Positions 4,135 to 61,954 of a DNA stretch of 62,304 bases are shown piece by piece. Position 1 is the first letter of the stretch. Each line of letters begins with the position of its first letter. A program made the position numbers and the translations under genes. Origin of the DNA: Clostridia bacterium (GTDB taxonomy: Bacteria; Bacillota; Clostridia; Oscillospirales; Acutalibacteraceae). The stretch is taken from assembly GCA_017537365.1 (NCBI GenBank), contig JAFYKZ010000014.1:1-62304 (forward strand). The letters are read 5' to 3'. The notes beneath the pieces are model-generated. The model was not told the origin of the DNA, searched no databases, and saw nothing but the letters and a program-made list of their open reading frames with translations.

Positions 4135-6282
4135 TCAACAAATTGTTATTTCTTTCTTATTTTCGATAAGGCAATTTTCGCCAACATAAATTTCTCTTAT
4201 GCCCTTTTCAACGATAAATTCACCTTGGGGACTATAATATCCTAATTCCTCAGCGCCAATTTCGAAAATAATTTCAGTTTTTTCGCCCTTATTTAAGGAA
4301 ACTTTTTGATAGCCTTTAAGTTCTCTTAAAGGTCTCATCCATTTAGCAACAGGAGTTCTTAAATAAATCTGAACTGTTTCCTTGGCATCAAAATCACCGA
4401 TGTTTTCAAGGCTAACAGAAACCTTTATTTTCTTTCCGTTCAAAACTTCATCCAAAGATATTTTATCATTATCAATTTTGGTTTCGCCATACTTGAATTC
4501 AGTATAAGAAAGACCAAAACCAAAAGGATAACAAGGAGTTGGCACACTATCAACATAACAGTTAGCAGGGTTTTCGTTATAATAGCAGTTAACCGGTCTG
4601 CCGCTTGAAGTTACATTGTAGTAAAGCGGAATATGGGTTGCAAGTTTTGGCAAGGTTACAGGAAGTTTACCCGATGGAGAAACATCACCAAATAAAACAT
4701 TGCAAACCGCCTGAGCACCGCAAGAGCCCGGATGCCATGCATAAATTATAGCATCTAAATCATCGGATATTTCCTGCATAGCAATTGGTCTTCCACAGAA
4801 AAGTATACCAACTATTTTCTTGCCGGTTGATTTTATCTTTTTAATTAATGCAATTTGCTCAGGTGGCAAGGATATATCAGAAACAGCGCGAGCTTCACCC
4901 GTGCAGCTCCAACTCTCTCCGAGCGCCATAACCACAACATCAGATAAATAAGAGTTTTTAGCCGAGCTATCCCAGCCCAAACCATAACCGCAAGAATAAT
5001 ATAATTTACCCTCGCAGGTTTTTCTCATAATATCGAGAAGATTATCCATTCCGTCGGTCTTACCGTCAATACACCAACTACCTAAAAGCGAACGCTTTTC
5101 AGTAGCATAAGGACCAACAAGGGATATATTTGCACTTTTGCTCAAAGGCAAAAGATTATTTTCATTTTTAAGCAAAACTATAGACTCGGTTGCCAAATCC
5201 TCAGCATCCTTTAAGTGAACAATTTTATCATATTCACCGCCATAGCAATAGGGATTTTCAAATAATCCCTTTTCCATTTTAACGGTTAAAATTCTTCTAA
5301 CCGATTCATTCAAGGTTTCTTCGCTAACCTCTCCGCTTTCAATTAGCTTTTCGAGGTTATCTAGATAACAAAAATCATGCATATCCATATCAAGACCTGC
5401 ATTAAGCGCCATTTTAGCGCAATCGGCGTTATCACGAGCAACGCCTTGTTTCTTTAACTGAATAACAGCATCATAATCCGAAACAACAAAACCATCAAAG
5501 CCTAATTTGCCTCTTAAAATATCGGTTAAATAATAAGAACTTGAGGTTATAGGTTGACCGCTGATATCATTAAATGAAGACATAACGGTCTTAACACCTG
5601 CTTTAACTGCAGAACGGAAAGCAGGTAAATAATAATTAAACAAGCTATAATCAGTAATTTCGGTGCGGTGATAATCTCTACCGCCCTCAGAAGCACCATA
5701 ACCAATATAATGCTTAGCGCAAGCAATCATATTGCCTTTATCACTTAAATTTTCACCTTGAAGACCTTTAACAACCGACTCTGCCACGCGAGCGCCAACA
5801 TAAGGGTCTTCTCCTGTGCCTTCTATTATTCTGCCCCAACGAGGGTCTCTTGCTAAATCGAGCATTGGCGTAAATGTCCAATGAACACTCTCTGCTGATG
5901 CTTCAGAAGCTATATCACTATAACTTTTCTTAACCAATTCATCGTTAAAAGAAGCTGCCATACCAAGAGGTATTGGAAAAACAGTATGATGACCGTGTAT
6001 AACATCTCTACCAAACAAAATCGGTATTCCGTTTGGACTTTCCTCAACGGCAATTCTCTGAATTTCATTATAAAATTCATTAGAAATAGCACCTTGGGCA
6101 TCGTTTCCTGCGGTAGCACCTACCGACATTAAAATCGAACCAACCTCACCTTTTCTAACCAAAGCCTTAAACTCTTCAATAGTTTTCTCGGTTGGAGTTT
6201 CGGGTTGGTTTAACTGACCGATTTTTTCTCTAACGGTCATTTTTGAAAGTAATTCTTCAACTCTTAATGCAATGTTCTCCAC
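4135..6282 (-). CDS. GH3 family beta-glucosidase/beta-xylosidase
   Basis: A 715-residue glycoside hydrolase of family 3 with the usual order: N-terminal TIM-barrel domain, second alpha/beta-sandwich domain and C-terminal fibronectin-III-like domain. The catalytic nucleophile is the aspartate of GFVVSDYDAV near residue 266. The barrel also carries the conserved KHYIGYGASEGGRDY region. No signal peptide is present, so it is probably cytoplasmic and trims imported oligosaccharides. I chose the GTG at 6282 because AGGGGA lies just upstream; the longer TTG start would run into the preceding gene. The gap to the isomerase gene is only 10 bp, so the two are surely co-transcribed. The exact sugar (glucose, xylose or arabinose) is not decided by the sequence. 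Confidence 0.92.
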   Translation of the reverse strand: MENIALRVEELLSKMTVREKIGQLNQPETPTEKTIEEFKALVRKGEVGSILMSVGATAGNDAQGAISNEFYNEIQRIAVEESPNGIPILFGRDVIHGHHTVFPIPLGMAASFNDELVKKSYSDIASEASAESVHWTFTPMLDLARDPRWGRIIEGTGEDPYVGARVAESVVKGLQGENLSDKGNMIACAKHYIGYGASEGGRDYHRTEITDYSLFNYYLPAFRSAVKAGVKTVMSSFNDISGQPITSSSYYLTDILRGKLGFDGFVVSDYDAVIQLKKQGVARDNADCAKMALNAGLDMDMHDFCYLDNLEKLIESGEVSEETLNESVRRILTVKMEKGLFENPYCYGGEYDKIVHLKDAEDLATESIVLLKNENNLLPLSKSANISLVGPYATEKRSLLGSWCIDGKTDGMDNLLDIMRKTCEGKLYYSCGYGLGWDSSAKNSYLSDVVVMALGESWSCTGEARAVSDISLPPEQIALIKKIKSTGKKIVGILFCGRPIAMQEISDDLDAIIYAWHPGSCGAQAVCNVLFGDVSPSGKLPVTLPKLATHIPLYYNVTSSGRPVNCYYNENPANCYVDSVPTPCYPFGFGLSYTEFKYGETKIDNDKISLDEVLNGKKIKVSVSLENIGDFDAKETVQIYLRTPVAKWMRPLRELKGYQKVSLNKGEKTEIIFEIGAEELGYYSPQGEFIVEKGIREIYVGENCLIENKKEITIC

Positions 6283-6292
6283 AGTATTTCCC

Positions 6293-7204
6293 CTATTTAT
6301 TTTCTTTTTTATCAAGAATATTTCTCATAACCTTTATAGCAAATTCTGCATAATCAACAAAAATTTCTTCGCCGAAATGACGCAAATTAAGTTCCATATT
6401 ATAAATACCATCATAACCGATTTCGTCTAACGCATTCATAACATCATCCCAATCAATACAGCCGGATAACGGCATTTTATGTTGGTCGGTTAAGGTATCA
6501 TTATCATTCAAATGCAAACAAGTAACCTCGCCACCTAATCTGCGAATAACATCCGCAGGGGTTGGGTTATCATATCGCATAGCTTTATTTGAATGACCTG
6601 TATCAACACAAATAGTAATATAATCCTTTAACTCAGGGATTTCTTTAACGGCTTTATATGCTTTTTCAAATTCATTAATATCTCCAAAAAAGTCAACCGC
6701 AGAAAATCTAACTGCATCACCAAATGTTTCGGTTGCAATTTTAATACCGTTTTGTTTAGCAAACGGGAGCATACCTTTGAACATTTTAAGACTTAATTCT
6801 TGCATAAGCTCAGGGTCAGGATTTGGACCCAAATAAATAGAGGTCGCATTATGAACAACCATAACCTTAGCACCGAGAGAAGCTGTTGCAATACAGTCTA
6901 ACCTTGTATTCTCTATCAAAGCCTCATCCTCCGCAGGAATATTGCGGAAGCCGGGGAGCTTGCCATGAGTTTGACCAATGACAAGCCCTATTTCCTCAGC
7001 GTATTCTCTAAGTTCGCTATAATAAGCTCTTATGGCATCTTCACCCTTAGCATAGAGTGAATCAGGATTTCTGTAATCACACTCACTGCCTTCCAAGGAG
7101 AAGTCAACCGAATCGGCACCAATTTGCTTTGCAATACGCAGTGCCTCTTTGTCTCCAAACTTGTGTTGAAATTGCCAAATTGAAATGCCGATTCTCTTTT
7201 TCAT
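6293..7204 (-). CDS. Sugar phosphate isomerase/epimerase family TIM-barrel protein
   Basis: A 303-residue member of the xylose-isomerase-like/AP-endonuclease-2 TIM-barrel superfamily. Typical metal-ligand segments are visible: the ATETFG strand near the middle, CVDTGHSN, CLHLNDND and a late YNMELNLR strand carrying glutamate. Such proteins isomerise or epimerise sugars or keto-sugars in the cytoplasm. It lies immediately upstream of the GH3 gene in the same operon, so it likely processes a monosaccharide released by the two hydrolases. The substrate cannot be named. Endonuclease IV is unlikely because the nine metal ligands of that enzyme are not evident. Confidence 0.8.
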   Translation of the reverse strand: MKKRIGISIWQFQHKFGDKEALRIAKQIGADSVDFSLEGSECDYRNPDSLYAKGEDAIRAYYSELREYAEEIGLVIGQTHGKLPGFRNIPAEDEALIENTRLDCIATASLGAKVMVVHNATSIYLGPNPDPELMQELSLKMFKGMLPFAKQNGIKIATETFGDAVRFSAVDFFGDINEFEKAYKAVKEIPELKDYITICVDTGHSNKAMRYDNPTPADVIRRLGGEVTCLHLNDNDTLTDQHKMPLSGCIDWDDVMNALDEIGYDGIYNMELNLRHFGEEIFVDYAEFAIKVMRNILDKKENK

Positions 7205-7234
7205 AATGGGACCCCACTATTTCATATTATATTT

Positions 7235-10200
7235 TTAATTGTTTAATTTTTTGGCTTTCTTCTTTTTAACAAGAGCAATAACCAAAATAGTTCCGCCTGC
7301 AATAGCGGCAATACCGATAAGTCCGGCAGGAATGATAAGAAGCAACCATAGCCAGTTAAATCCTTCGTTTTCTAAGGAAAGTTTAATAGATGTTCCCTTA
7401 AACTCTTTGATTTCAACAGTTCTGAAAACATACTTCTCGCCATTTTGCATTATTGAATAAACTTCAAATTCTCCAACCGGAAGTTTATCAAACTGGAACA
7501 TACCGTCTTTATTAGTTACAACATATCCAATATCACCGATATAAACCTTAACATTAGCCATAGGCTTGCCCTTTGCATCGAATAAGTATCCACGCAAAGC
7601 ACCGTAAGGCTCAACACCATCAGCATTAAGGTCCATTTCAACCTCAGCTGCTGTTAAAACAGTAATAACAGGGATATTTGAAATAACGCTACTCATTATA
7701 TCTAAATCAACCTGAACGGGCAAACGAGTGCCGGATTCTGTAACAATAAACAACTGATATATGCCCGGTTTAACATTGGTGAATCTATATTCACCATTAG
7801 CGTTAGTTTTAGCTTTTCTGTTGCCAGGTGTAAGCAATAATTGAATATTTTTAATAGGGTCGCCGTTCTTATTAACAACAGTACCTCTGATTTCGCCTGG
7901 AGCTTCTTCTAAACCGCCGCTCATACCAGCAGCTAATTCACCCGACCAGTCTCCATCTTCAAACTTCTTATCATCATAATAGAAGATGAATACGCTATCA
8001 TCATATTTACCCTTTTGATAGTTATTGCTTGAAGCCTTAAACTTGCCTGCGATATTTACCAATTTGCCCATTTCTAAGAGAGCCAAATCCGCAAAATAGC
8101 CCTTACCTTTAATTCCATTTGTTATTTGAACACGAATATCAGCTTTTCCGTCAACAATGATAGCGTCCTCAGGAATTGTGAAATCTATTTCAAAAATAAA
8201 ACGGTCCGAATCATAGTACATATCCGTTGCTAACGCAACATATTTACCGCCTTCTCTTCTTGATTTATAAAGAACCTGCGGTGTTACACCCTCACCATTC
8301 ATATCAAGCTTTTTACCTGTGAAACGGTATTCTTTATAGGCATCAACAGTAACATCTGCACTATATGTTGCATTAGTATCAGTACCCTTAGAGGTAATCA
8401 TTTCAGCAGGGTCTGAAAGTTTCTTCAAATAATCTTCATAAGGTTCTTCAACAACCAAAGCTTTCATACCCTTTTGAGTATCCCAAACAACATTACCCAA
8501 AGCAAAATCGCCGTTAAGCATAATATTTCCGCTTATTCTGTTGCCGTTAGCATCTAACTTATAAAGTTCGCATGAGCCCCAGAAACCTGCTGAACCTTGA
8601 CGCATATAGTAATACACATACATATTACCATTGTTAGCAGTACGAAGATTAGTAGGTGTTTTAAACACCGTTCTTGTGGAATAATCATCTATATCTTCTA
8701 TCTTACAGTTATTACCCTCGGGAATTTTATTATCTTCATCAATATCAGTATTTTTAGCTTCTAAACCGCCGTTTTCGCCTTCGGTGTAATATAATAAATA
8801 TACTTTACCGTAAGGTTCATTATTTTTACGGAAATGGGTGAAATTATAATTATAAATCATTTCATAAGAAGTATCCGGTTCTAACATCATATTATATCTA
8901 TACATAGCAAAATCATCAGAATCGCTAAACTGAACCATCTTTTTCTTATAATTTTTCACCTTGCTAAAGAAATTCTCAGGAAACTCACCAAACTTATAAA
9001 CACTTAAATTTGAGAAATTCCAATTATCATATTCTAAAGAAAAATCTCCGTTTTTAAGCATTTCTTTGGATACAACATCGCCTGAACCATTAATCTCAAC
9101 CAATGAGAAATTAGCAAAATAACCTGAAACATAGGCACTGCCTAAATTGATTGAAATATCTATGCTATTGATTCCATCGGGAACAGTAAAGGTATATGTT
9201 TCTTTATATTCAGTTGAAGATACAACTATATTGCTAGGATTAATAACTTGCGTACCGCCATTATCACATGTGATTTCCACGCAAGCCTTATCTTCTTCTC
9301 TACCCTTATTTACCCACTTAGCATTAAAACTCAATTGATAAGTTTTACCTGCTTCAACTGCAACCGATTGTCCAACTTTACCGGCTAAGCCCTTAGTTGT
9401 TGTATATGAGTTTTCATTTTTGCCGGCAAGAATAAGAATTTGAGGAGTTAAAACATCAAAATATTCGACCGGAAGATACGCGATTTCAGGCTCTGTATCA
9501 AATGTTCCTTCCTTCATCCAAACCGATTCGTTACTAGCATAATCATAATCAGGTATAGATTTAGTGCTTTCAAAAGAAGGGTCTGCAATGAAGTTATCGC
9601 CTATTGCCATTGAATACTTATCGGACTCATTAAGAGCAAAATCTGTGAAATAGCCCTTAATATTCTTATTATTAAATTTCAAACCAATACGCAAATTCTT
9701 TTCATCAACTAAGTTATTTGGCATTTCAAAAACAACATTAGTATTCATTGTTCCGCCAATATCCTTAGTGATTTTAATAGGTGTTATTTCCTTTTCACCT
9801 TGAGTAGTTATAGCATAAATATAAGGAACAGCTTCCTCATCATTATTATATCTATTTTTGAAGCTGAAAATATATTGCTTTGAGCCCTCAACAGTTTCAA
9901 GCAAGGTAATATTACCCTCTGATTCTTCAACACTTAAAGCTTTTTTATAAGCGAAGAAACCATTAGGAATTTCACTAAGCTTAACTGTATTATAAGTTTT
10001 AAACATATCATCCTTAGTGATTTGTTGCCAACCATATAATTGAATATCAACATTATCAGAAGTTATGTTACCTAATGAACCATATTCAAAGCTACCGTTA
10101 AATAGGAGGTTTTCACCATAGGACTCTCCCTTGCCTTTACTGGTATCTTCGCAAAGTGAAATATTACCGAAATAAGCTGTTGCATCAGCCGCACTATTAG

Positions 10201-45598: not shown

Positions 45599-45640
45599 AC
45601 TCCTTGAAGGTTTTATCCTTCAAGGAGTTTTCTCTTTTAC
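45599..45640 (+). terminator. Terminator between the membrane-protein gene and the integrase gene
   Basis: Perfect 12-bp arms ACTCCTTGAAGG (45599-45610) and CCTTCAAGGAGT (45617-45628), followed by a T-rich run. It separates the convergent transcripts of the 166-residue protein and the integrase. Confidence 0.85.
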
Positions 45641-46824
45641 CCCAAAGCAGTTCCTATTGCCATCGCACTTGCTTTCTTGCTCTCGCTGTCGATGTGACTG
45701 TAAATGTTGGCTGTGGTTCCCATATCAGAGTGACCGAGCCAGTCCTGAATCATTTTCATCGGTACACCGTTTGCGAGAAGTAGCGATGCACAACTGTGCC
45801 TGAGATCGTGAAAGCGGACGGGTTTTAATCCGTGTTCTTTCAGCACCACTTTGAAATGGTCGGTCACGTAGTTTGGTTTTATCAGTTCACCGATTGCATC
45901 TACACAGATGTAGTCGGTGTATTTTTTGCAGTAACCTCGGCGCATCACCCGCATCATTTCTTCTTGCTTTTCCTTTTCGGCAAGGAGAACTTCTTCCACT
46001 TGCGGTATTAGAGGTAGGGTTCGGTAGGAAGATTTTGTTTTCATAACGTCCATTCCGACCACACCTTTATCGTTCTGCACCACCTTGTGATTTACGCTGA
46101 CCATCTTGTTTTCAAAGTCAACCGCAGACCATTTCAGTCCAAGCACTTCGCTACGGCGGAGTCCGTAGTAAGCGGCAAGGAAGATTACAATGTGGATCGG
46201 GTCGTTCGCCGTTTTGTCAAGCAACTCTTTCAGCTCACCGGCGTTATAATATTTGCCGATGTACTGTTGAGCCTTCGGTCTGTCTGCTTGCTCAACAGGA
46301 TTGCTCGGTATGATTCTTCGCTTGACCGCCGACTTGAAAGCAAGATGCAACAGCGCGTGATGGCGTTGAGCGGTGGTGCCTTTGAGTCCGTCACCTCGGA
46401 TGCGGATATAGTAATCGTTGATTTCATCACCCGTAATATCCTTGACCTTGAGGTCGCCGCACTCACGGAAAAACGGAACCATTCGCGACTGTATCATCAG
46501 TTTGTAACCTTCGTATGTGGTTTCCGATACGTTCACCTTGTGCGACTCCAACCACTCGGGAAGGTAATCTGCCACCTGCATATGCGCCACTCGGCTACGC
46601 TCTTTGTCGGCGTGGGACATGTTTTCGCGCTTGTAAAGATCATCGGTGTTGTATTGTTCAAGGATCTGGCGGAGGCGGTGTTCCGCCTCGCGCTTGTTAC
46701 CTTTGTTCGCATCGAGATTCAGACCTTGCCATTTCTCTTTGCGCTTACCGTCAGTGTCATATAGATTGATGACCGCATACCACTTTTTGTTTTTCTCGGT
46801 CAGGTGTCCTGTGATTCGTTTCAT
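45637..46824 (-). CDS. int: Tyrosine site-specific integrase (Tn916/phage type)
   Basis: A 395-residue recombinase that inserts and excises the mobile element. It has an AP2-like arm-binding N-terminus, a SAM-like core-binding domain (VADYLPEWLESHKVNVSETTYEGY) and a C-terminal catalytic domain. Catalytic residues are visible in YYGLRRSEVLGLKW (Arg), HDLRHSCASLLL (His and Arg), WLGHSDMGTTANIYSHID (His and the tyrosine nucleophile). Its base composition is clearly richer in GC than the chromosome and cargo around it, a sign of separate origin. It is the left-end gene of the element. Confidence 0.95.
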   Translation of the reverse strand: MKRITGHLTEKNKKWYAVINLYDTDGKRKEKWQGLNLDANKGNKREAEHRLRQILEQYNTDDLYKRENMSHADKERSRVAHMQVADYLPEWLESHKVNVSETTYEGYKLMIQSRMVPFFRECGDLKVKDITGDEINDYYIRIRGDGLKGTTAQRHHALLHLAFKSAVKRRIIPSNPVEQADRPKAQQYIGKYYNAGELKELLDKTANDPIHIVIFLAAYYGLRRSEVLGLKWSAVDFENKMVSVNHKVVQNDKGVVGMDVMKTKSSYRTLPLIPQVEEVLLAEKEKQEEMMRVMRRGYCKKYTDYICVDAIGELIKPNYVTDHFKVVLKEHGLKPVRFHDLRHSCASLLLANGVPMKMIQDWLGHSDMGTTANIYSHIDSESKKASAMAIGTALG

Positions 46825-51595: not shown

Positions 51596-51670
51596 ATCAG
51601 CACCTCCTTTGCAGTACAAACATATACCACAAAGGTTTCACGAAGTCCAGAGATTTTTCAATATAAAAGC

Positions 51671-51698
51671 AAAAGCGCCGCATTTCTACGACGCTTTT
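51671..51698 (-). terminator. Terminator of the radical SAM/GHKL/HerA operon
   Basis: On the minus strand AAAAGCGTCG pairs with CGGCGCTTTT (one G-T pair) around an 8-nt loop and is followed by a T-rich tail. It lies four bases after the radical SAM stop codon. Confidence 0.8.
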
Positions 51699-51701
51699 AA
51701 A

Positions 51702-53570
51702 TTATTTTTCAGCCGGTTTTAATACCTTTTCTGCATCTTCACGTTTGATAGTGTAATACTGCAAAACTTTAAGGACATTTTTATTCTTTGTTTTCGATTC
51801 TATATCATGGAAATCATTCTGCTCAATTATAGGATTAATAATGGATTTTTCTTCATCGCTTAGCGCAGAATATGCATTCCACCATTCTTGGGTCAACCCT
51901 ATTTCCTCGAAATAGAATCTATAAATTATCATTGCCTCTGGCATATAAAGGAGCTTAAAAAACTCTTCTTCGTTTTCTCCAAAAGCTTTACAGAAAAAAG
52001 TATATCCTTTCCCAACTTTTCCTTTTGTAGAATTAAGAATAGCCTGTATTGTACGAATGAACTTTCTGTTCCAATGCTTTCCGATATAATCTCTGTTGCT
52101 AAAATAATCAGGATCTTCTATGGGATGATATTTCATCGGGAATGAATAAATACTTGCGTCCAATTCTTCGCATAAATCTACATTTAATTTTAATCGCATA
52201 TATAATTCTACTGGTTTATCTTCGAAATTATACAAAATATAATTGGAAAGATTTTTATGCCCATTCCTTACTGCTATGCGAACGGCATTTTCATATTTTT
52301 CATGAAGACTCCAATGGTCAAATGCGATTCTGACAGGCCTTATTGGAACTTCTGCCAACATAGCCATATTTTTATCTGTTATTAATCGCGAATCAATACC
52401 CTGATTAAAATCAATATATCGTTTTTTCGGTTTGCTTGAATAAAAGGTTTCAAAGAAAGGGCGCACAAACTCATAAGTGTCCAAAATAGCTTTCTTAGTG
52501 GCAGTATATTCCTCCAAGAGATAATTATCTTTTAAAAGATCATAAAGCTCTTGAACTTTATCAGGCCCCATTTTATCGATAAGTTTGCGGAACTGTTTCA
52601 CGCAGGACTTAATATAACCCTTATCATTTTGCCCTGTTCTTAAATTCTGAATGGCAATTTCATATAAATTAGGAGCTATATATGTTGAGTAGTTTGAAAA
52701 CCCTGCACTTTTAATATCCTCAATAATTTCATCGAATTTACAGGAGGCCAAAACATTGTTATCAAGTAGGAGCAAATCTCTTTTTGCTCCGTATTTTTCC
52801 TCGGCAATTTTGACTTGCTCTGATATAGGTAAAAAAGCTTTATATGTGGGTTCAAGCTTTGGAACAGCACAAAACTTGCATTTGTTTACACAACCACGAG
52901 TCATATATGCATAGTATGCGTTAGATGCTGGATACTCGTAATCAACTTCTTCTAAAATTGAATAATCTAACGGAAGAGTATCTATGACCATATCGTTATC
53001 ATCGTCTAATTCTCCCGGAGTATGTAAAGTCCCCACATGGGGTTTAATTCCCGTAGCGGCTTCAACTCTATCAGAAAGAATAGAAGCCATTACACCGCCA
53101 ACCATTACGCCATCGGGAGTTTTACAGAGTTGCTTAGCAAAATTGATGGTCTCAATTGTTATATCCCAATAAAATGTAAATAGTGTTGTTATACCCACAC
53201 GATCATATTTGCGAAATTCTGGCTTGAAATAATCTTTGTTATAATAAAAACGTCGATAATAACGGAATAATTCGGTGATAATTGGATTATCACCGTATCC
53301 TGGTACGCCTTCTAACGAAGAAACCTGTCCTTTTTTTAAATATAAGCATATCTGTGGCTTATACAATTCCCAAAAAACCGTATCATCATTGGCATACAAT
53401 TGAACTTTCAAAAGTTCAAAAGTATCGTCTAAAACTAACTCTTGGAGATTTCCTTTAAAGAAGGTTACGTGATCTCCTAAATTTTTGTAATATGTAGATA
53501 TTTTCATTAACCCCATTGGTGGATATTTATTTTTATAATTTGGTTCCACCAAAAGTATCTGTCGATTCAT
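51702..53570 (-). CDS. Radical SAM protein, last gene of the candidate defence operon
   Basis: A 622-residue enzyme. The N-terminal 200 residues resemble the B12-binding-like domain of class B radical SAM enzymes (QILLVEPNYKNKYPPMGLMKISTYYK). The cluster motif is TRGCVNKCKFCAV (CxxxCxxC) near residue 229, and IDFNQGIDSRLITDKNMAML follows in the barrel. It should bind a [4Fe-4S] cluster and cleave S-adenosylmethionine. The product is unknown: a modified base, nucleotide or protein residue are all possible. Its ATG overlaps the GHKL gene's stop by four bases, so the two proteins are made together. Whether it binds cobalamin is uncertain, because no classical DxHxxG motif is seen. Confidence 0.85.
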   Translation of the reverse strand: MNRQILLVEPNYKNKYPPMGLMKISTYYKNLGDHVTFFKGNLQELVLDDTFELLKVQLYANDDTVFWELYKPQICLYLKKGQVSSLEGVPGYGDNPIITELFRYYRRFYYNKDYFKPEFRKYDRVGITTLFTFYWDITIETINFAKQLCKTPDGVMVGGVMASILSDRVEAATGIKPHVGTLHTPGELDDDNDMVIDTLPLDYSILEEVDYEYPASNAYYAYMTRGCVNKCKFCAVPKLEPTYKAFLPISEQVKIAEEKYGAKRDLLLLDNNVLASCKFDEIIEDIKSAGFSNYSTYIAPNLYEIAIQNLRTGQNDKGYIKSCVKQFRKLIDKMGPDKVQELYDLLKDNYLLEEYTATKKAILDTYEFVRPFFETFYSSKPKKRYIDFNQGIDSRLITDKNMAMLAEVPIRPVRIAFDHWSLHEKYENAVRIAVRNGHKNLSNYILYNFEDKPVELYMRLKLNVDLCEELDASIYSFPMKYHPIEDPDYFSNRDYIGKHWNRKFIRTIQAILNSTKGKVGKGYTFFCKAFGENEEEFFKLLYMPEAMIIYRFYFEEIGLTQEWWNAYSALSDEEKSIINPIIEQNDFHDIESKTKNKNVLKVLQYYTIKREDAEKVLKPAEK

Positions 53571-55132
53571 TTGCTCAGTTCTTCCTGTATTTTATTTATG
53601 ACCATAGTAGCCATATCTTTAGGCAAAATGGCATTAAGAATGCCATAAATGCGGCTAATTAGTTTTTGCTCTTTTTTGTTATATTTTGAGAGAGATTGAG
53701 ATAAATACTGTTTGTTTTTATTTTCAGCAGGTTGAGGTTTTTCGTCCTTACTTGGCTTCTTTTCGTCAGGAACAGTATAGTCGGTGCGTAGTGCAGTATA
53801 TACTTTAGATAAAACATCGTCATCTTTTTCTTTTGATGTGCGAGTTTCGAGAAGACGAGCAGCTTTTTCGGCAGCTCTTTTTTTATCTTCTATTACTGTT
53901 GCAGCTTTCTTTTTATCCTCAGCATCGAGAAATGCACCTTTAGCCAACTTCTCATCATATTCTGTTTGAGAAACCTCTAAGTCAATTTGCTTTTGCAAAG
54001 CTTTCTTAAAGTCGTTTGCATAATGATATATCTTTTTAAAACGATCATGAAACAAGGGACGTAATTGACGCTCAAATTCGCGGCACGTAGTATTTAAATT
54101 AAAGTAATCACGTCTTGCGTTGGGTATTAAATCTGAATTCACAGCAAACACCTCTCCTACAAAATACAAGCATCCTCTTGTTTCATCATAGAAGTTGTGG
54201 GCTGAAAATGTGTTTTCATTACCTATTTGTATATTTTCTTTTCTTAGTCTAATACCTCGCATAGGATTAATATCTGGAATTTGTTTTTCAAATTTGCTGA
54301 TACCATACCACATCCATGCGAGAATTTTTCCACTATTGTCAGTGAAAATTTCAAAGGCGATATCAATAATCGAATCATAGGTTTGTTTTGAATTATTTTT
54401 AGGTTCATATAAATTGCTTGTATATGGTTTGAAAAGTCTTTCGCCATTTACAAAAACCTGATACTCATCTATAACAAAACCGTTTTTGCGTGCAAACTCA
54501 GCAATTTTGTTTTTATACATAAACCCAACCGCATAAGGAATTGGAGCTACTGCCCTCAAATAATCCTTTACACTGTTTACATCTAATATATCTAAAGATG
54601 TTTCGTCTACACCAAGCAACTCAACTTTGAAAAAATGATCATCAACAGAACAAGTATATTGTGTATACTCTGTTACCATATCCACCAAATCGGCAGCAGA
54701 CGGGTTTCTATTAGCATCAACAAGAATTTCTCGTACTTCTTTTGCATCCCAAGTACATACAGAAACAATGTTTTCTCCTTGAACGGAACAAGAAAAACGC
54801 AATTTATCACAGGATGAAATTCCACCTAATCGTCCGATTCCTCTAAACCCTTTTTCTTCTCCGCGATCCTTTTCGGAATCTGCAATACTACTCATTATCT
54901 TCTTAAATTTAGCACTTTTGATTCCAAGACCATTATCACATACTGTTACTGTTCTGTTTTTTCCATCAATCTCAATATCGATACGAGCTTGTTCAGCAGT
55001 TATAATGTTTTGAGAAATCGCTTTATCAATGGAATCGGCAGAATTTTGAATATATTCTCGATAAATTATGCGCAAATCCTCATACATAGCGGTTGTTAAA
55101 TTTTCAATTGCATTTTTGCCTATAAATGCCAT
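53567..55132 (-). CDS. Hsp90-like GHKL ATPase
   Basis: A 521-residue protein with an N-terminal Bergerat ATP-binding fold of the Hsp90/MORC kind. Motif I is REYIQNSADSID (Glu26, Asn30, Asp33), motif II CDNGLGI (Asp66) and the glycine lid GEEKGFRGIGRLGG (residues 91-104). A second transducer-like domain follows to about residue 390. The C-terminal third is highly charged coiled coil and linker (about 395-480), with a short helical end. Such ATPases close on a client or on DNA when ATP binds. I set the start at 55132 (AAGGAAG upstream) because the longer frame runs into the HerA gene. It lies 13 bp after HerA and overlaps the radical SAM gene. Confidence 0.85.
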   Translation of the reverse strand: MAFIGKNAIENLTTAMYEDLRIIYREYIQNSADSIDKAISQNIITAEQARIDIEIDGKNRTVTVCDNGLGIKSAKFKKIMSSIADSEKDRGEEKGFRGIGRLGGISSCDKLRFSCSVQGENIVSVCTWDAKEVREILVDANRNPSAADLVDMVTEYTQYTCSVDDHFFKVELLGVDETSLDILDVNSVKDYLRAVAPIPYAVGFMYKNKIAEFARKNGFVIDEYQVFVNGERLFKPYTSNLYEPKNNSKQTYDSIIDIAFEIFTDNSGKILAWMWYGISKFEKQIPDINPMRGIRLRKENIQIGNENTFSAHNFYDETRGCLYFVGEVFAVNSDLIPNARRDYFNLNTTCREFERQLRPLFHDRFKKIYHYANDFKKALQKQIDLEVSQTEYDEKLAKGAFLDAEDKKKAATVIEDKKRAAEKAARLLETRTSKEKDDDVLSKVYTALRTDYTVPDEKKPSKDEKPQPAENKNKQYLSQSLSKYNKKEQKLISRIYGILNAILPKDMATMVINKIQEELSK

Positions 55133-55145
55133 AGTATATACTTCC

Positions 55146-56828
55146 TTATTTTGTTTTAAATTGTTTGTAAATCGGTTTTGGGAATTTGATGTTGAGGAGT
55201 GAACTGAAAACAGGATTCTGAACAATATATTCACCCTGTTTTAATCTCGACATCATGCTCTTATAAACCGACGGAATGAAACTGTAATCTTTCTGTGCTA
55301 TTTCAATAGCGTTTGTTCTACCATAAGCAAAAGTTGAACAGTTGCCTGTAACACGGGGATGAATAGCACTTTTAAACTGTTCTGCCGCAAAAAGGACAAC
55401 ACCTAATGAACGACCACGTTCTGCAATATCAAGAACTTGTCTTAAAATAGGTGAAGATTTGGGCGTATCTTTTGAGGCATATTTGTTTAATTCATCGATA
55501 AATACAACAATCTTTGATGGCGGAGTATAATCATCATCAAAGCCTTTTTCTTGTTGTAAATCATAAATTGCACGAATAGCATCACCGAACACAAAGCACT
55601 GCATATCATCATTCAATTTAGCTATATCAATGACATGTACTTCATTCTTTTTAATACGTTTTAAAGAGTCAGAAATCCGTGTGTCGCGATCTTCATTTTT
55701 TATATTACTAAAGATTTCGTTGCGGTAAATTGATTTTTTAACAATACGTTCGAATTTTCTCCAACTTAAAACACTAATCTCTTTATCTCCTGAAGCTCCG
55801 GCTTTTCCACATTCGTTGACTTCTTTTAAAAATTCTTGCCAGTCATCCAATCCACCAAAATTGCCTCTGTTTTGAATGACATAGTTCAAGATAGAATCCA
55901 TTGTCATAGTAGGGTCATCAAGACTTGCAAACATTAAATCAAGGTTCTGTTTGTCTTGCTTATATTCATATTTATACATGTGAGCCCTACCTTGAGATAT
56001 GTTGTGTTCAACAGCTGATGGTTCTAAATATGTATTCCAAGAATTTTTAGTAGAATAGGGATAATAATAATGAACATTTTGGAATGGCTTGGTTGTCATT
56101 CCAAGTTCTTTATATAAAGCATAAGTTTCTTCTTTTTCAGATTCATTATTGAACTCGTTTGGTTCATCTATAGCAAGAAGATCCTTGCCTTTAACATTAA
56201 AGATAACAAAAGCAACATCTTCATCGTCGTCGGGTTCTACGGCATTTAAGCATTTATCTTGAATACCTTTTAACAAGAACATTGCATATGAAGTTTTGGC
56301 TGCTAAGCCAGATATACCAGAGATATTTAAATGAGCACCTTCAGGACCGATTAAATATCGAGAATCTACATTTACACAAAGTTTAACACGTTCGCTTTCT
56401 TCAGCTCCTTGGTACATTTCCAAGTATCCACATGGAACGGGGTTTTTTATTGTCGATAATCCTAAGGCATCTGAAACTTCTGATTTTTCAGCTATGTATA
56501 CCCCTTCACCATTAAGAACGGGAATATATACATTTTTTGAATTTCCTATAATTCGAGCTTTAACATAGTTCATGCCTATCCTATGTGTAATTGGGTGGGA
56601 ATCAACATCACCAAAATCGTTAGAAATATAGTCCGAAAGAAAATTGGCAGTATCGGTAATATGGGAAATTTCCTCAATAACACCATAAGTAACACTTTCA
56701 CCGACATGATTCACCTTGACAACATCGAACGGATTTAACATCAATTCCGGTTTTGTCCAAAAATAAAATTCTTCCATTGTTGATGGATTCTTTTCAGTTG
56801 CTAATATTTTACCTATAATTTTTCCCAT
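55146..56828 (-). CDS. HerA/FtsK-superfamily ATPase with HAS-barrel
   Basis: A 560-residue DNA-translocase-like ATPase of the HerA family. The N-terminal HAS-barrel segment (MLNPFDVVKVNHVGESVTYG) comes first. The P-loop region reads NISGISGLAAKTSY near residue 178: G-x-x-G is followed by three residues and then K-T, one more than in the classical GxxxxGK[ST]. Walker B is IVVFIDELNKYA near 438, and FAAEQFKSAIHPRVTGNCSTFAYGR is the usual HerA sensor/arginine-finger stretch. HerA hexamers pump DNA into a partner nuclease such as NurA, and a NurA-like gene lies 19 bp upstream in the same operon. GAGGAA precedes the ATG. Confidence 0.88.
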   Translation of the reverse strand: MGKIIGKILATEKNPSTMEEFYFWTKPELMLNPFDVVKVNHVGESVTYGVIEEISHITDTANFLSDYISNDFGDVDSHPITHRIGMNYVKARIIGNSKNVYIPVLNGEGVYIAEKSEVSDALGLSTIKNPVPCGYLEMYQGAEESERVKLCVNVDSRYLIGPEGAHLNISGISGLAAKTSYAMFLLKGIQDKCLNAVEPDDDEDVAFVIFNVKGKDLLAIDEPNEFNNESEKEETYALYKELGMTTKPFQNVHYYYPYSTKNSWNTYLEPSAVEHNISQGRAHMYKYEYKQDKQNLDLMFASLDDPTMTMDSILNYVIQNRGNFGGLDDWQEFLKEVNECGKAGASGDKEISVLSWRKFERIVKKSIYRNEIFSNIKNEDRDTRISDSLKRIKKNEVHVIDIAKLNDDMQCFVFGDAIRAIYDLQQEKGFDDDYTPPSKIVVFIDELNKYASKDTPKSSPILRQVLDIAERGRSLGVVLFAAEQFKSAIHPRVTGNCSTFAYGRTNAIEIAQKDYSFIPSVYKSMMSRLKQGEYIVQNPVFSSLLNIKFPKPIYKQFKTK

Positions 56829-56847
56829 AATAATTTCCTCTCCAAAC

Positions 56848-58017
56848 TTAAAAAAGATTTAAGAACATATTTTCTCCGAGATATTTACTCTTTATGAAAC
56901 TTTCAGTTATATATACAGGATACAAATGATTTGCCCATCTGCGATCAGCACCATAACATACAGGTGCGCGTTCGTTTATGATGTTTGCTGTAATCATGTC
57001 TACTTCTTCAGACTCAAGACCATTTTGTATTTGTTCATCAGTAACAAGTATTTTTTCGATTTTCAATATACCATCAAAAGCGTTTAACGTGTATTTTGAG
57101 TTTCTAATACGAACAAACCAAACAGCAAAATGCATATCCCCGATTCGATCTGACGAATACATATTTACTGGGGTTCGATGATATAAGGGTAATTGAGCAA
57201 TTAAGTTAGAATTATTTCTTTTATTTTTATCAACGCAGTTTTCGGGATTAAACGATTTCGATACGCCCACTACAAATTGATAGTTATTTCTAAAGCGAGC
57301 CAATTCGTTTTTGTTGGTTATCCCGTGCACCTGATATTCTAACGAGCCATCTTTAATCAAATATTTATCAGGAAGTAAAAAGCCTTTTTTTACAAGTTCT
57401 GCAACCATGTATTTTTCTCGCTCTATCATATAATCTTGTATGGAAGCAATACCCTTGTTTTCAATCTTATCACCAATTTCTACATTTGTAGCATACGATA
57501 GTATTTTTGCAAATTCTATATTTTTATCGGTTAAATCTTTTCTCGCATTTATTTTTTTACGCAAATGCTCAAATGCAAGTTCGTCATCATCCCAATCATT
57601 AGCTTTTGCTATCTTTGGAAGAGAGACAACCAAGTGCCTTTCAAACATAGGAGTGTTTTCGTAGTATAACGGCTGCATGTCCATATTTACACGTGTGCAA
57701 CATCCCACACCTACTTGACCTGCAATAATAGGATAAACTTGATTTCGATAAGCCATATCATCAACTTTGTAAGTTTTGCGAGAGCCATCAAGAAAATATG
57801 CAAATAATGGTGGCGATTGCAGTGCCATTTTTGCCTGTTCCGTTAAATTTTTAGGCTTGTTTTCGGGGGCAGTTTCTCCTATTTTTTCCCACGTAATATG
57901 ATGCCTGTGGTCATCATAATCAAAACGAGGTACTTCAATGCCCTCGAAACCATATTTATATGTCTTAAAACTTTTGCCATCTGTTTCATTAGCAATAATA
58001 TCTAACAACTTACTCAT
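56848..58017 (-). CDS. NurA-like nuclease partner of HerA
   Basis: A 389-residue protein. The segment LFAYFLDGSRKTYKVDD (Asp77) matches the first metal-binding motif of NurA 5'-3' nucleases. YPIIAGQVGVGC follows, and the C-terminus RRWANHLYPVYITESFIKS resembles the NurA closing motif with its conserved proline and acidic residue. The gene immediately precedes the herA-like gene, the arrangement expected for a nuclease-translocase pair that resects DNA ends. I set the start at 58017 (GGAG upstream). Overall similarity is weak, so the family call is inferred from motifs and gene order. Another DUF-type nuclease is possible. Confidence 0.65.
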   Translation of the reverse strand: MSKLLDIIANETDGKSFKTYKYGFEGIEVPRFDYDDHRHHITWEKIGETAPENKPKNLTEQAKMALQSPPLFAYFLDGSRKTYKVDDMAYRNQVYPIIAGQVGVGCCTRVNMDMQPLYYENTPMFERHLVVSLPKIAKANDWDDDELAFEHLRKKINARKDLTDKNIEFAKILSYATNVEIGDKIENKGIASIQDYMIEREKYMVAELVKKGFLLPDKYLIKDGSLEYQVHGITNKNELARFRNNYQFVVGVSKSFNPENCVDKNKRNNSNLIAQLPLYHRTPVNMYSSDRIGDMHFAVWFVRIRNSKYTLNAFDGILKIEKILVTDEQIQNGLESEEVDMITANIINERAPVCYGADRRWANHLYPVYITESFIKSKYLGENMFLNLF

Positions 58018-58055
58018 ATAATTTTCTCCACGCATTCAATAAATCGTTTAAAAAC

Positions 58056-58265
58056 TTATACATTAAAGAACACATCTGTATCAAAAGCTATATTTCTTTT
58101 TTCACAGTACGCCTTCAACTTCTTTAACGCAGTATAACTCGGTTTGGTTTTTCCTGTTTCCCATCGATTAACAGTAGAAAAAGAAACATTTAATTCTTTA
58201 GCGAAGTCTTCTTGACTCAACAAACTGCTCGTTCGAATATCTTTAACAGTTTTACTGAATTCCAC
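58056..58265 (-). CDS. XRE-family helix-turn-helix regulator
   Basis: A 69-residue single-domain repressor (SLLSQEDFAKELNVSFSTVNRWETGKTKPSYTALKKLKAYCEKR). It is the first gene of the NurA/HerA/GHKL/radical SAM operon, 38 bp before the nuclease gene. A GCATCAT/ATGATGC inverted repeat overlaps its promoter, so it is probably an autorepressor that keeps the operon low. The start is GTG, with GGAG nearby. Confidence 0.88.
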   Translation of the reverse strand: MEFSKTVKDIRTSSLLSQEDFAKELNVSFSTVNRWETGKTKPSYTALKKLKAYCEKRNIAFDTDVFFNV

Positions 58266-58303
58266 AACGGTTACTCCTTTTTAAACTAATATGCAAACTT
58301 ATA

Positions 58304-58337
58304 GCATCATTATAGCATATATGATGCAAAAAAGCAA
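58304..58337 (-). promoter_or_regulatory. Promoter and operator of the candidate defence operon
   Basis: On the minus strand TTGCTT (58332-58337) and TATAAT (58309-58314) are 17 bp apart. The 7-bp inverted repeat GCATCAT (58304-58310) / ATGATGC (58321-58327) covers the -10 box and is a good operator for the XRE protein. Confidence 0.65.
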
Positions 58338-58358
58338 TTACTATGCTGATAATTGTCA

Positions 58359-58426: not shown

Positions 58427-59260
58427 TCATTGAGATTCGGAATTTGATGGTTCCATATCGTCCGTTTCAACTTCTTGTATCGCAACATTTGGTTTATATA
58501 TGTAACCCTTCTTTTCTTCGCCAATTTCCGGATCAATGTATACCACTTCATAGTAATAGGGCACTTCGTTTATCACAGTTATATCCTGATCAACATTAAT
58601 GTTTACAACTATGTTCGAAGTTGAAGATGGCAATTCATAAACGTTGCTATTTTTAGTGGTTGTAGCCGAAGAAGGAGCTTGCATAAAACCGAGTAAAAAG
58701 CCCAAAATAGCACCAATTATCAGTAAATATATGTCAGCTAATAATGGATGCTTTTCTTTCCATTCTCCGTACCTCTGCTCAATATTCTTTTGCGAGTCTT
58801 TTGCAAGCAAAGCCTCTTCTGCACTTTCTTTGAGTTCCGCACGAATCTCATCGGTCAAAACATCTTCAACATCAGCTGGCTCATAGTCATAATTTTCAAG
58901 TGTTTTAGCCATCCAGTCCCAATCAATAGTGGGGATTTTCCAAGAAGTATCAATGATAGGAAGAATTCTTTCCATTGTCGGAATCATATCAATGACCGTT
59001 GGAATTTGAATGTTAGCAAGAACAGATTGCATTATAGTTGCACTTTTTGCTAAATTTTCAAATGCACTATTTGAATAAACGTTGTTTAAAATCGATTGGT
59101 ACGATGCAACCGCTGCATATGCTCCAGATAAATTTTGAGAAACTGAAAAAGTTTGATTAATCTTGTTTAGTGTTTCTAAAGAAGACGATATACTTTTCAA
59201 GAATTTTTGTGTTTCAAAAAAAGAGTCAGGGAGTTCAAAACTCCAAGGATTTTTGCTCAA
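58427..59260 (-). CDS. Membrane protein with possible SH3-like tail, third gene of the AbiE operon
   Basis: A 277-residue protein that I do not recognise as a named family. The first 165 residues are helical and charged. One membrane segment lies at about 171-193 (HPLLADIYLLIIGAILGFLLGF). The C-terminal 70 residues are beta-rich, with NIVVNINVDQDITVI and EVVYIDPEIGEEKKGYIYKP, and look like a small SH3-type domain. It follows the AbiEii-like toxin gene by 23 bp and ends at the hairpin, so it is co-transcribed with the toxin-antitoxin pair. It may be a membrane partner or effector (inference). Confidence 0.7.
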   Translation of the reverse strand: MSKNPWSFELPDSFFETQKFLKSISSSLETLNKINQTFSVSQNLSGAYAAVASYQSILNNVYSNSAFENLAKSATIMQSVLANIQIPTVIDMIPTMERILPIIDTSWKIPTIDWDWMAKTLENYDYEPADVEDVLTDEIRAELKESAEEALLAKDSQKNIEQRYGEWKEKHPLLADIYLLIIGAILGFLLGFMQAPSSATTTKNSNVYELPSSTSNIVVNINVDQDITVINEVPYYYEVVYIDPEIGEEKKGYIYKPNVAIQEVETDDMEPSNSESQ

Positions 59261-61084: not shown

Positions 61085-61113
61085 TTGAGTTTAATTTAAT
61101 TTTATGATAAAAT
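61085..61113 (+). promoter_or_regulatory. Promoter of the AbiGi-like gene
   Basis: TTGAGT (61085-61090) and TAAAAT (61108-61113) are 17 bp apart, about 30 bp before the ATG. Confidence 0.55.
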
Positions 61114-61141
61114 GTATTTAGAATATTTTGGAGGAAGATTT

Positions 61142-61954
61142 ATGGGGCAATATACATCAAATCTATTATGTCACTTTGTTGGACGTTCAAGAGAAAATGA
61201 TAACGAACGCTTTGAACTATTAAAAACTATTATTGAAGGCAAACGCTTAATAGCCAGTTTGGAACATCCGGACAATCCTCAAAGTTTCTTTCAGTTGGGT
61301 TATCATTGCGAAAATGTTGGAGAAGTTTTTGGAGAATGTGATTGTGTTTGCTTTTGTGATATTCCAGATAACGCTTTATCAATACATATCAATAAGTATA
61401 GTCGTTTTGGAATTGGTTTTAATAAAAAATTCATCGCCGAGCAAGGTGCCCGTCCAGTTATGTATGTTCCAAACAATTATTTAGTTGCTGAACGCGGCGA
61501 CGGCGGAAGCGGAGGACAATCATCCACACCACGTGTGCCAGCTGAATATTTTCCATATATTCTTACCTTGGCATGCAATTTGCTTCCACTGCTACAACTT
61601 GGAGCTGCCCCGGATGCATTAGCCCTCAATATGAAACAAAACGGTTTAGAAGAAGCTCTTGGCTTATTTGATCGAAATATTAGAGAGGCTTTTTTTAATA
61701 AACAGTATAACCCGCTTGTTTTCTCTCTTATTCAAGGAATTGCTACCCAAATGGCATATGTAAAACTATACGATGCCACACTGCCAGATGATCATCCAGA
61801 TAATTATTATATGGAACGTGAATGGCGTTGTCTAAAAAATGTGTTATTTAACATAGAAGATATTGAGTGTATTTATCTTCCCAACAGCGACTATAAGGAA
61901 CTGTTCAAACAATCTTTTCCAACTTATAATGGCAGATTTTTTATATTTGATTAA
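61142..61954 (+). CDS. AbiGi-like antitoxin-family protein
   Basis: A 270-residue protein resembling the AbiGi family of abortive-infection antitoxins. Recognisable are LLCHFVGRSREN at the start, CVCFCDIPDNALSIHINKYSRFGIGF and GARPVMYVPNN. In lactococci AbiGi pairs with an AbiEii-like toxin, AbiGii. Here no own toxin follows and the nearest toxin belongs to the divergent AbiE operon. I set the start at 61142 because GGAGGA lies seven bases upstream. It may act with the AbiE toxin or be a stand-alone defence protein. Confidence 0.75.
   Translation: MGQYTSNLLCHFVGRSRENDNERFELLKTIIEGKRLIASLEHPDNPQSFFQLGYHCENVGEVFGECDCVCFCDIPDNALSIHINKYSRFGIGFNKKFIAEQGARPVMYVPNNYLVAERGDGGSGGQSSTPRVPAEYFPYILTLACNLLPLLQLGAAPDALALNMKQNGLEEALGLFDRNIREAFFNKQYNPLVFSLIQGIATQMAYVKLYDATLPDDHPDNYYMEREWRCLKNVLFNIEDIECIYLPNSDYKELFKQSFPTYNGRFFIFD

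Follow-up and report, generated by a model that had tools for sequence, protein, structure and literature searches.

A phylogenetically widespread NurA-HerA-GHKL-radical SAM gene block that probably destroys invading DNA

We describe a block of four genes, unnamed and spread over many phyla, that encodes a NurA-type nuclease, a HerA-type ATPase, a GHKL ATPase, and a radical S-adenosylmethionine (SAM) enzyme, and that probably destroys invading DNA. The block lies on contig JAFYKZ010000014.1 of a Clostridia bacterium (GCA_017537365.1; 1.72 Mb, 98% complete), and we refer to the whole 62,304-nucleotide stretch of this contig as the window. Radical chemistry may serve this system in telling self from foreign. 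Our proposal builds on direct observation of the protein families, the NurA fold, the conserved motif residues, the gene order, the co-occurrence of the genes, and the several partner modules of the radical SAM enzyme. In what follows, N, H, G, and R denote the NurA-type, HerA-type, GHKL, and radical SAM genes, and N-H-G-R denotes their order of transcription.

Results

Conservation and spread of the four genes

A scan of genome contigs returned 528 relatives of the radical SAM enzyme; we retained the 80 best matches, a set that is biased toward the window type. Record titles place the 80 in Clostridia, Negativicutes, Bacteroidales, Gastranaerophilales, Thermoguttaceae, Spirochaetaceae, Aminicenantes, Cloacimonadota, Mucispirillum, and Victivallaceae, among others, mostly as metagenome bins. 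The N-H-G-R order is kept in 58 of the 63 loci with sufficient upstream DNA, a score that ignores insertions and leaves out the 17 of 80 loci with less than 4.8 kb upstream. Over 62 N-H-G-R loci, the median gaps between successive genes are 11, 11, and 0 bp. Among the five failing loci, the GHKL gene is split over two open reading frames (ORFs) in L062 and L066, and a second GHKL-like ORF plus further intervening DNA is found in L076 and L091; the fifth, L073, is considered in the Discussion. Insertions between the HerA and GHKL genes were observed in L078 (1.6 kb, 6876-8436) and L079 (2.2 kb, 6254-8438).

The NurA gene provides an anchor that is independent of the radical SAM gene. For this we used scans of 391 genomes of the class, which, like the 20-genome follow-up described below, are less biased but include the window's own genome. 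NurA is present in 8 of the 391 genomes, and all 8 also carry the radical SAM gene, which is present in 11 (P = 1.3e-14, or 4.7e-13 with the window's own genome removed). All 8 NurA-anchored loci contain NurA, HerA, GHKL, and radical SAM genes, and the complete set is found in four viral contigs as well. The association of the four large genes, on which the original prediction for this DNA turned, thus holds across genomes, and its distribution is patchy, as expected of defence genes.

ORFs neighbouring the block match 95 PADLOC families at 1e-20 or better, versus 10 for control ORFs. This comparison rests on 148 ORFs from each side, out of 512 neighbours and 190 controls, counts families rather than genes, and uses a small control drawn from three single-contig genomes. 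Judging by eye, we took two neighbour clusters to be integrases and serine recombinases; they are present at 9/80 and 8/80 genome loci, respectively, and at 16/98 and 13/98 loci when viral contigs are included.

The NurA, HerA, and GHKL proteins

The family libraries gave no useful match for the NurA gene, and its identity came from structure comparison, in which an RNase H-like fold matches the HerA-NurA nucleases and the TdpAB nuclease (chain G). Residues D77, E201, D223, and H364, which may be the equivalents of the known catalytic Asp, Glu, and His, are invariant in 54/54 sequences. For HerA, a profile search of the PDB identified HerA 7f6d_B (5.3e-54, two matching stretches), and residues K178, D445, and E446 are conserved in 36/36 sequences, in line with the P-loop and Walker B motifs of the HerA core. 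The HerA N-terminus reaches the Pfam HAS-barrel at 0.1, below its cut-off, while profile positions 5-262 align to 7f6d_B. The closest solved complex to the HerA and NurA of the window is HerA-NurA of D. radiodurans.

The GHKL protein matches HATPase_c_3 (9e-11), and HtpG is its top match in a profile search of the PDB (4.5e-11). Residues E26, N30, D66, G98, and G100 are present in 35/35 sequences; judged by its HATPase_c domain and its N, G1, and G2 motifs, it is a member of the GHKL ATPase family. No relative was returned when the viral contigs were searched with the GHKL query.

The radical SAM enzyme

The N-terminal motif of the radical SAM enzyme is EPNYKNKYPPMGLMK, and the cysteines of its CxxxCxxC cluster (C227, C231, and C234) are invariant in 47/47 aligned sequences. 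It matches Pfam Radical_SAM at 5.9e-5, which is under the gathering score, and phrog_9298 at 1.8e-41. By its CxxxCxxC signature, the protein belongs to the radical SAM superfamily. Weak matches to RimO and MiaB/RimO led us to consider a methylthiotransferase, an identity that we rejected because no additional Cys is fully conserved. Profiles, the NurA structure, and the motif residues thus uphold the HerA, NurA, GHKL, and radical SAM assignments of the original prediction.

Partner modules of the radical SAM enzyme

We followed up the radical SAM gene in 20 genomes, a count that omits four weak matches deemed generic (G082, G127, G159, and G183; E values of 2e-5 to 9e-4). The match in G328 contains one stop, and the radical SAM enzyme of G842 is distant (24%). 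The partner is NurA-HerA in 12 genomes; one of these also has a ParB-like insertion and carries two GHKL genes. Three genomes have a PbeC-type ABC ATPase and a small protein weakly resembling dnd_assoc_4, two have a ParB-like gene alone, and one each has DrmA/DrmB with NERD-UvrD, SNF2 with ParB, and a cyclase-like gene with GHKL. A GHKL gene adjoins the radical SAM gene in 15 of the 20. Another DrmA/B locus with the radical SAM gene, and further SNF2-ParB loci, come from viral contigs, and the order DGQHR-radical SAM-GHKL is found on the three alphaproteobacterial plasmids that were opened, two of which carry a PIN-like gene (Pfam PIN_8 for one). Partner proteins gave matches to PbeA (5.4e-218), PbeC (1.4e-174), DrmA (2.8e-161), DrmB (1e-52), and DGQHR (1.6e-48), and a match to DndD TIGR03185 (1.6e-50) that falls short of the cut-off.

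The ParB-like label derives from two L109 proteins that weakly reach Pfam ParB_N (1.8e-4 and 0.0022). The ParB-like genes of L015, L152, L155, L020, and L160 are linked by BLAST to the L109 proteins or to each other, have a GNRR-type motif in common, and have either no Pfam match or a match to DUF5677. In L160, a NurA-HerA genome, the ParB-like gene directly follows the radical SAM gene; in L020, the two genes are convergent.

A search for DNA-methylase motifs found none in the Drm loci L115 and L021 or in the PbeC loci L196, L198, and L200, and found one in 1 of 66 N-H loci. In a tree of the radical SAM enzyme with 38 rows, the NurA-HerA label needs five changes, four of them forced by supported branches, indicating that partners have been switched more than once, by gain or replacement; rows L200, L120, and L107 are long and unsurely placed. 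Such changes could mean that NurA-HerA was acquired several times or that it was replaced several times.

Several loci carry additional genes. A second GHKL gene lies approximately 0.8 kb after the radical SAM gene in L050 (11912-14154), L046, L064, L071, L073, and L078, and at least L050 and L046 have a cyclase-like gene between the two. This pair of a cyclase-like and a GHKL gene, possibly a signalling add-on, is found upstream of the radical SAM gene in L154 and L106. The L050 cyclase-like protein weakly matches Guanylate_cyc (0.00094, below cut-off), and those of L154 and L106 gave no such match. In Marinitoga camini virus 1 (L120, 5869-9695), a short radical SAM relative is convergent with relatives of HerA and NurA, and no GHKL gene was found within the stretch examined. 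On another viral contig (L112, 8312-11386), a radical SAM relative lies near a candidate Cas7/Csf2-like protein, which presumably resembles that of type IV CRISPR systems.

The operon in the window and its surroundings

Coordinates are collected in Table 1. As originally described, five genes lie on the minus strand (58265-51702; XRE, NurA-like, HerA, GHKL, radical SAM), separated by 38, 19, and 13 bp and, between GHKL and radical SAM, overlapping by 4 bp. The operon had also been credited with a promoter and a terminator of its own. A terminator-like hairpin is indeed present, one of 6 such sites across the whole stretch versus 3.4 expected. A scan of the minus strand from the XRE gene to the next upstream gene detected no promoter, and promoter-like sites in the promoter scan show no excess over chance (29 versus 31.6 expected). 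Reading by eye yields a candidate consisting of TATAAT at 58314-58309 (as TGC-TATAAT) and a weak TTGCTT at 58337-58332, which makes a promoter plausible.

Table 1. Features of the operon and adjoining DNA in the window
Feature	Position	Strand	Remarks
Radical SAM gene (622 aa)	51702..53570	-	proposed DNA-modifying enzyme
GHKL ATPase gene (521 aa)	53567..55132	-	HATPase_c_3, Hsp90/MutL-type
HerA-type DNA translocase ATPase gene (560 aa)	55146..56828	-	
NurA-type nuclease gene	56848..58035	-	389 aa from ATG 58017, 395 aa from 58035
XRE/HTH_3 regulator gene	58056..58265	-	HTH_3 1.2e-12; local accessory, outside core
Terminator-like hairpin	51670..51699	-	13 pairs and T tail; directly 3' of radical SAM stop
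Candidate promoter	58309..58337	-	TTGCTT, 17 nt, TATAAT preceded by TGC; by eye
Tyrosine integrase gene of surrounding element	45637-46824		
AbiEi/AbiEii adjoining operon	60898-59284		

The XRE gene had been counted as a member of the system. A similar ORF lies directly upstream of NurA in just 6 of 53 loci, so the core consists of four genes rather than five; the upstream slot can hold other small helix-turn-helix genes, such as cluster 11 in 5/80 loci. The placement of the operon inside a mobile element and next to AbiE is confirmed: in addition to the integrase, the element encodes a relaxase and NikA/MobC. AbiE was likewise rejected as a part of the system, with clusters read as AbiEi and AbiEii at 7/80 and 6/80 loci, respectively. 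Between the XRE gene and AbiEii lies a gene (58427-59260) whose product has a probable membrane stretch by eye and no useful match in the family libraries, and an AbiGi-like gene is found on the plus strand at 61112-61954 (Pfam 4.3e-13, best stretch of about 50 residues).

Discussion

We consider it likely that the four-gene system acts against invaders and that HerA-NurA degrades incoming DNA. In the restriction-modification-like model that we favour, a HerA hexamer would pump double-stranded DNA into a NurA dimer, where the DNA would be degraded. For identification, the radical SAM enzyme would place a mark of some kind on what we presume to be its substrate, host DNA. The GHKL ATPase could act as an ATP-gated clamp that loads the radical SAM enzyme or links the marking step with restriction. 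DNA bearing the mark would be spared, and incoming DNA without it destroyed. The model as a whole falls a little short of an even chance, and the same caution applies to its central step, that the radical SAM enzyme with GHKL modifies DNA as a mark of self. Marking of self DNA by the radical SAM enzyme, one option in the original prediction, gains support from the occurrence of its gene in types of locus where a methylase is usually present. The motif search suggests that the radical SAM enzyme sits in the methylase position of the DrmA/B and PbeC loci. More tentatively still, the radical SAM enzyme, usually with GHKL, could be a portable cassette for DNA modification by radical chemistry, common to a superfamily of defence systems that would span HerA-NurA, DISARM-like DrmAB, PbeC/DndE-like, SNF2 with ParB, and DGQHR with PIN; the window operon would then be its commonest form in the sampled genomes.

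A number of observations weigh against a self mark on DNA. The radical SAM enzyme has no close relative among solved structures (best E value of 0.1), and its alignment of 47 sequences contains neither conserved auxiliary-cluster Cys nor an invariant His (39/47 at best), the latter making a cobalamin-dependent enzyme less likely. The methylase test was a motif search only, and an ORF with a DPPW motif is present 0.9 kb from the radical SAM ORF in L110, a viral SNF2 locus. Distant small relatives occur in four other records, two of them near annotated DNA methylases and accompanied by PAPS-reductase-like genes (a Bacteroides phage and an archaeal plasmid; L121, 3698-7143, and L122, 4657-12158) and two not (a small Bacteroides plasmid and a Bosea plasmid). 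The window form lacks genes of the ParB, DGQHR, and DndE types, whose presence elsewhere makes the strongest case for DNA, and the partners in L154, a cyclase-like and a GHKL protein, would fit signalling. The radical SAM gene has no GHKL neighbour in 5 of the 20 followed-up genomes, and in L073 no N-H-G was found with it. In L101 (3033-4955), an unscored locus with 3 kb upstream, it is solitary among housekeeping-type genes; an orphan copy, decay, and a binning fault are possible readings.

An alternative role for the radical SAM enzyme is to make a modified nucleotide, either a viperin-like chain terminator or a second messenger, with GHKL sensing infection and HerA-NurA executing the response. 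Prokaryotic viperins, which are radical SAM defence enzymes producing modified nucleotides, set a precedent (PMC12926258). The cyclase-like gene beside some relatives (L154, L106) would also fit, as would the weak cyclase match of the related L050 protein, which the L154 and L106 proteins do not share. However, the remaining partner modules act on DNA, and a nucleotide maker would not be predicted in PbeC-type and DrmA/B loci devoid of methylase motifs, making this role unlikely. We are more doubtful that the enzyme modifies NurA, HerA, GHKL, or an invader protein and thereby turns the nuclease on. The GHKL and radical SAM genes overlap or almost touch, with a median gap of 0 over the 62 loci, as would fit a complex, but the pairing of the radical SAM enzyme with unrelated nucleases and motors makes a partner-specific substrate unlikely. 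Peptide-modifying enzymes of the SPASM type, moreover, have further conserved cysteines, unlike the enzyme studied here.

DNA repair rather than defence seems improbable. In this case HerA-NurA would resect breaks and the radical SAM enzyme would reverse a DNA lesion in the manner of spore photoproduct lyase. The closest solved complex is that of D. radiodurans, and HerA-NurA complexes were initially studied for end resection (PMC12977600); the same source, however, reports that T. kodakarensis HerA-NurA degrades both strands of double-stranded DNA, and its authors propose a defence role and doubt one in resection. Repair also fits poorly with the patchy occurrence in 8/391 class genomes, with the presence of the set in viral contigs and in an element bearing integrase and relaxase genes, and with the excess of PADLOC families among neighbour ORFs. 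That same element, together with the integrase and serine recombinase clusters at other genome loci, would suit an operon that favours its carrier element over rival plasmids or phages rather than serving general host defence. Mobile elements normally carry defence cargo, so this idea overlaps with the restriction-modification-like model, and as a separate explanation it too is improbable.

If the restriction-modification-like model is true, several defence architectures use a radical enzyme where a DNA methylase would otherwise stand, implying a new class of DNA marks found chiefly in anaerobes, among them gut Clostridia and Bacteroidota. A function would also be suggested for phrog_9298, an unassigned radical SAM family of phages and plasmids, and for those HerA-NurA pairs whose role is unclear. 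The portable cassette considered above would, to our knowledge, bring radical SAM catalysis into restriction-modification for the first time.

Comparison with known systems

In agreement with the original prediction, searches of the window proteins in PADLOC, NCBIfam, and Pfam matched no named system, and no description of a NurA-HerA-GHKL-radical SAM system was found among the matches listed from the open-access literature. Restriction of unmodified DNA by a HerA/NurA-like complex has a precedent in TdpAB, which works together with the phosphorothioation enzyme TdpC. The NurA fold matches chain G of TdpAB (TdpABC; PDB 8wet, 8wfd), but the modifier in the window would be the radical SAM enzyme in place of TdpC, and the GHKL ATPase is additional. 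We know of no GHKL and radical SAM partners for the HerA-NurA pairs of D. radiodurans (7f6d) and T. kodakarensis (9x1m) or for S. solfataricus NurA (2ygk), whereas the window joins all four genes in one operon.

SIR2-HerA, DUF4297-HerA, and MADS share a HerA-family ATPase, with weak PADLOC matches (mad8 best, 3.2e-9), but they have other partners (PMC12977600) and are not known to include a radical SAM enzyme or GHKL; the NurA, GHKL, and radical SAM genes of the window gave no PADLOC hit. The window genes have no Drm hit, DISARM being recognised by DrmA and DrmB, and no Dnd or Pbe hit, the CxC-ABC/DndE (Pbe-like) systems being recognised by a DndD/CxC ABC ATPase and DndE. Radical SAM relatives nevertheless occur within loci of both kinds (L115 and L021; L196, L198, and L200), where no methylase motif was found and where the radical SAM enzyme, with GHKL in some, may fill that slot. 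By word search, PMC12458937 (YprA helicase systems) is without Hsp90, GHKL, or rSAM and has 'radical' once, and PMC12839542 (BREX-related systems) is without radical, NurA, or Hsp90.

A GHKL ATPase is combined with a nuclease both in the restriction-modification operons of MORC/paraMORC, for which looping of DNA by the GHKL proteins has been proposed (PMC2292703), and in VcSduA, a Shedu protein whose GHKL domain is hypothesized by the authors to control the nuclease (PMC12137116). The roles envisaged are looping or clamping of DNA, or control of the nuclease. The MORC/paraMORC operons differ from the window in having methylases and SF2 helicases, and VcSduA in having its nuclease fused; PMC2292703 does not contain the words radical, HerA, or NurA. 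We place the four-gene system with the restriction-modification kind, possibly with a new marking chemistry.

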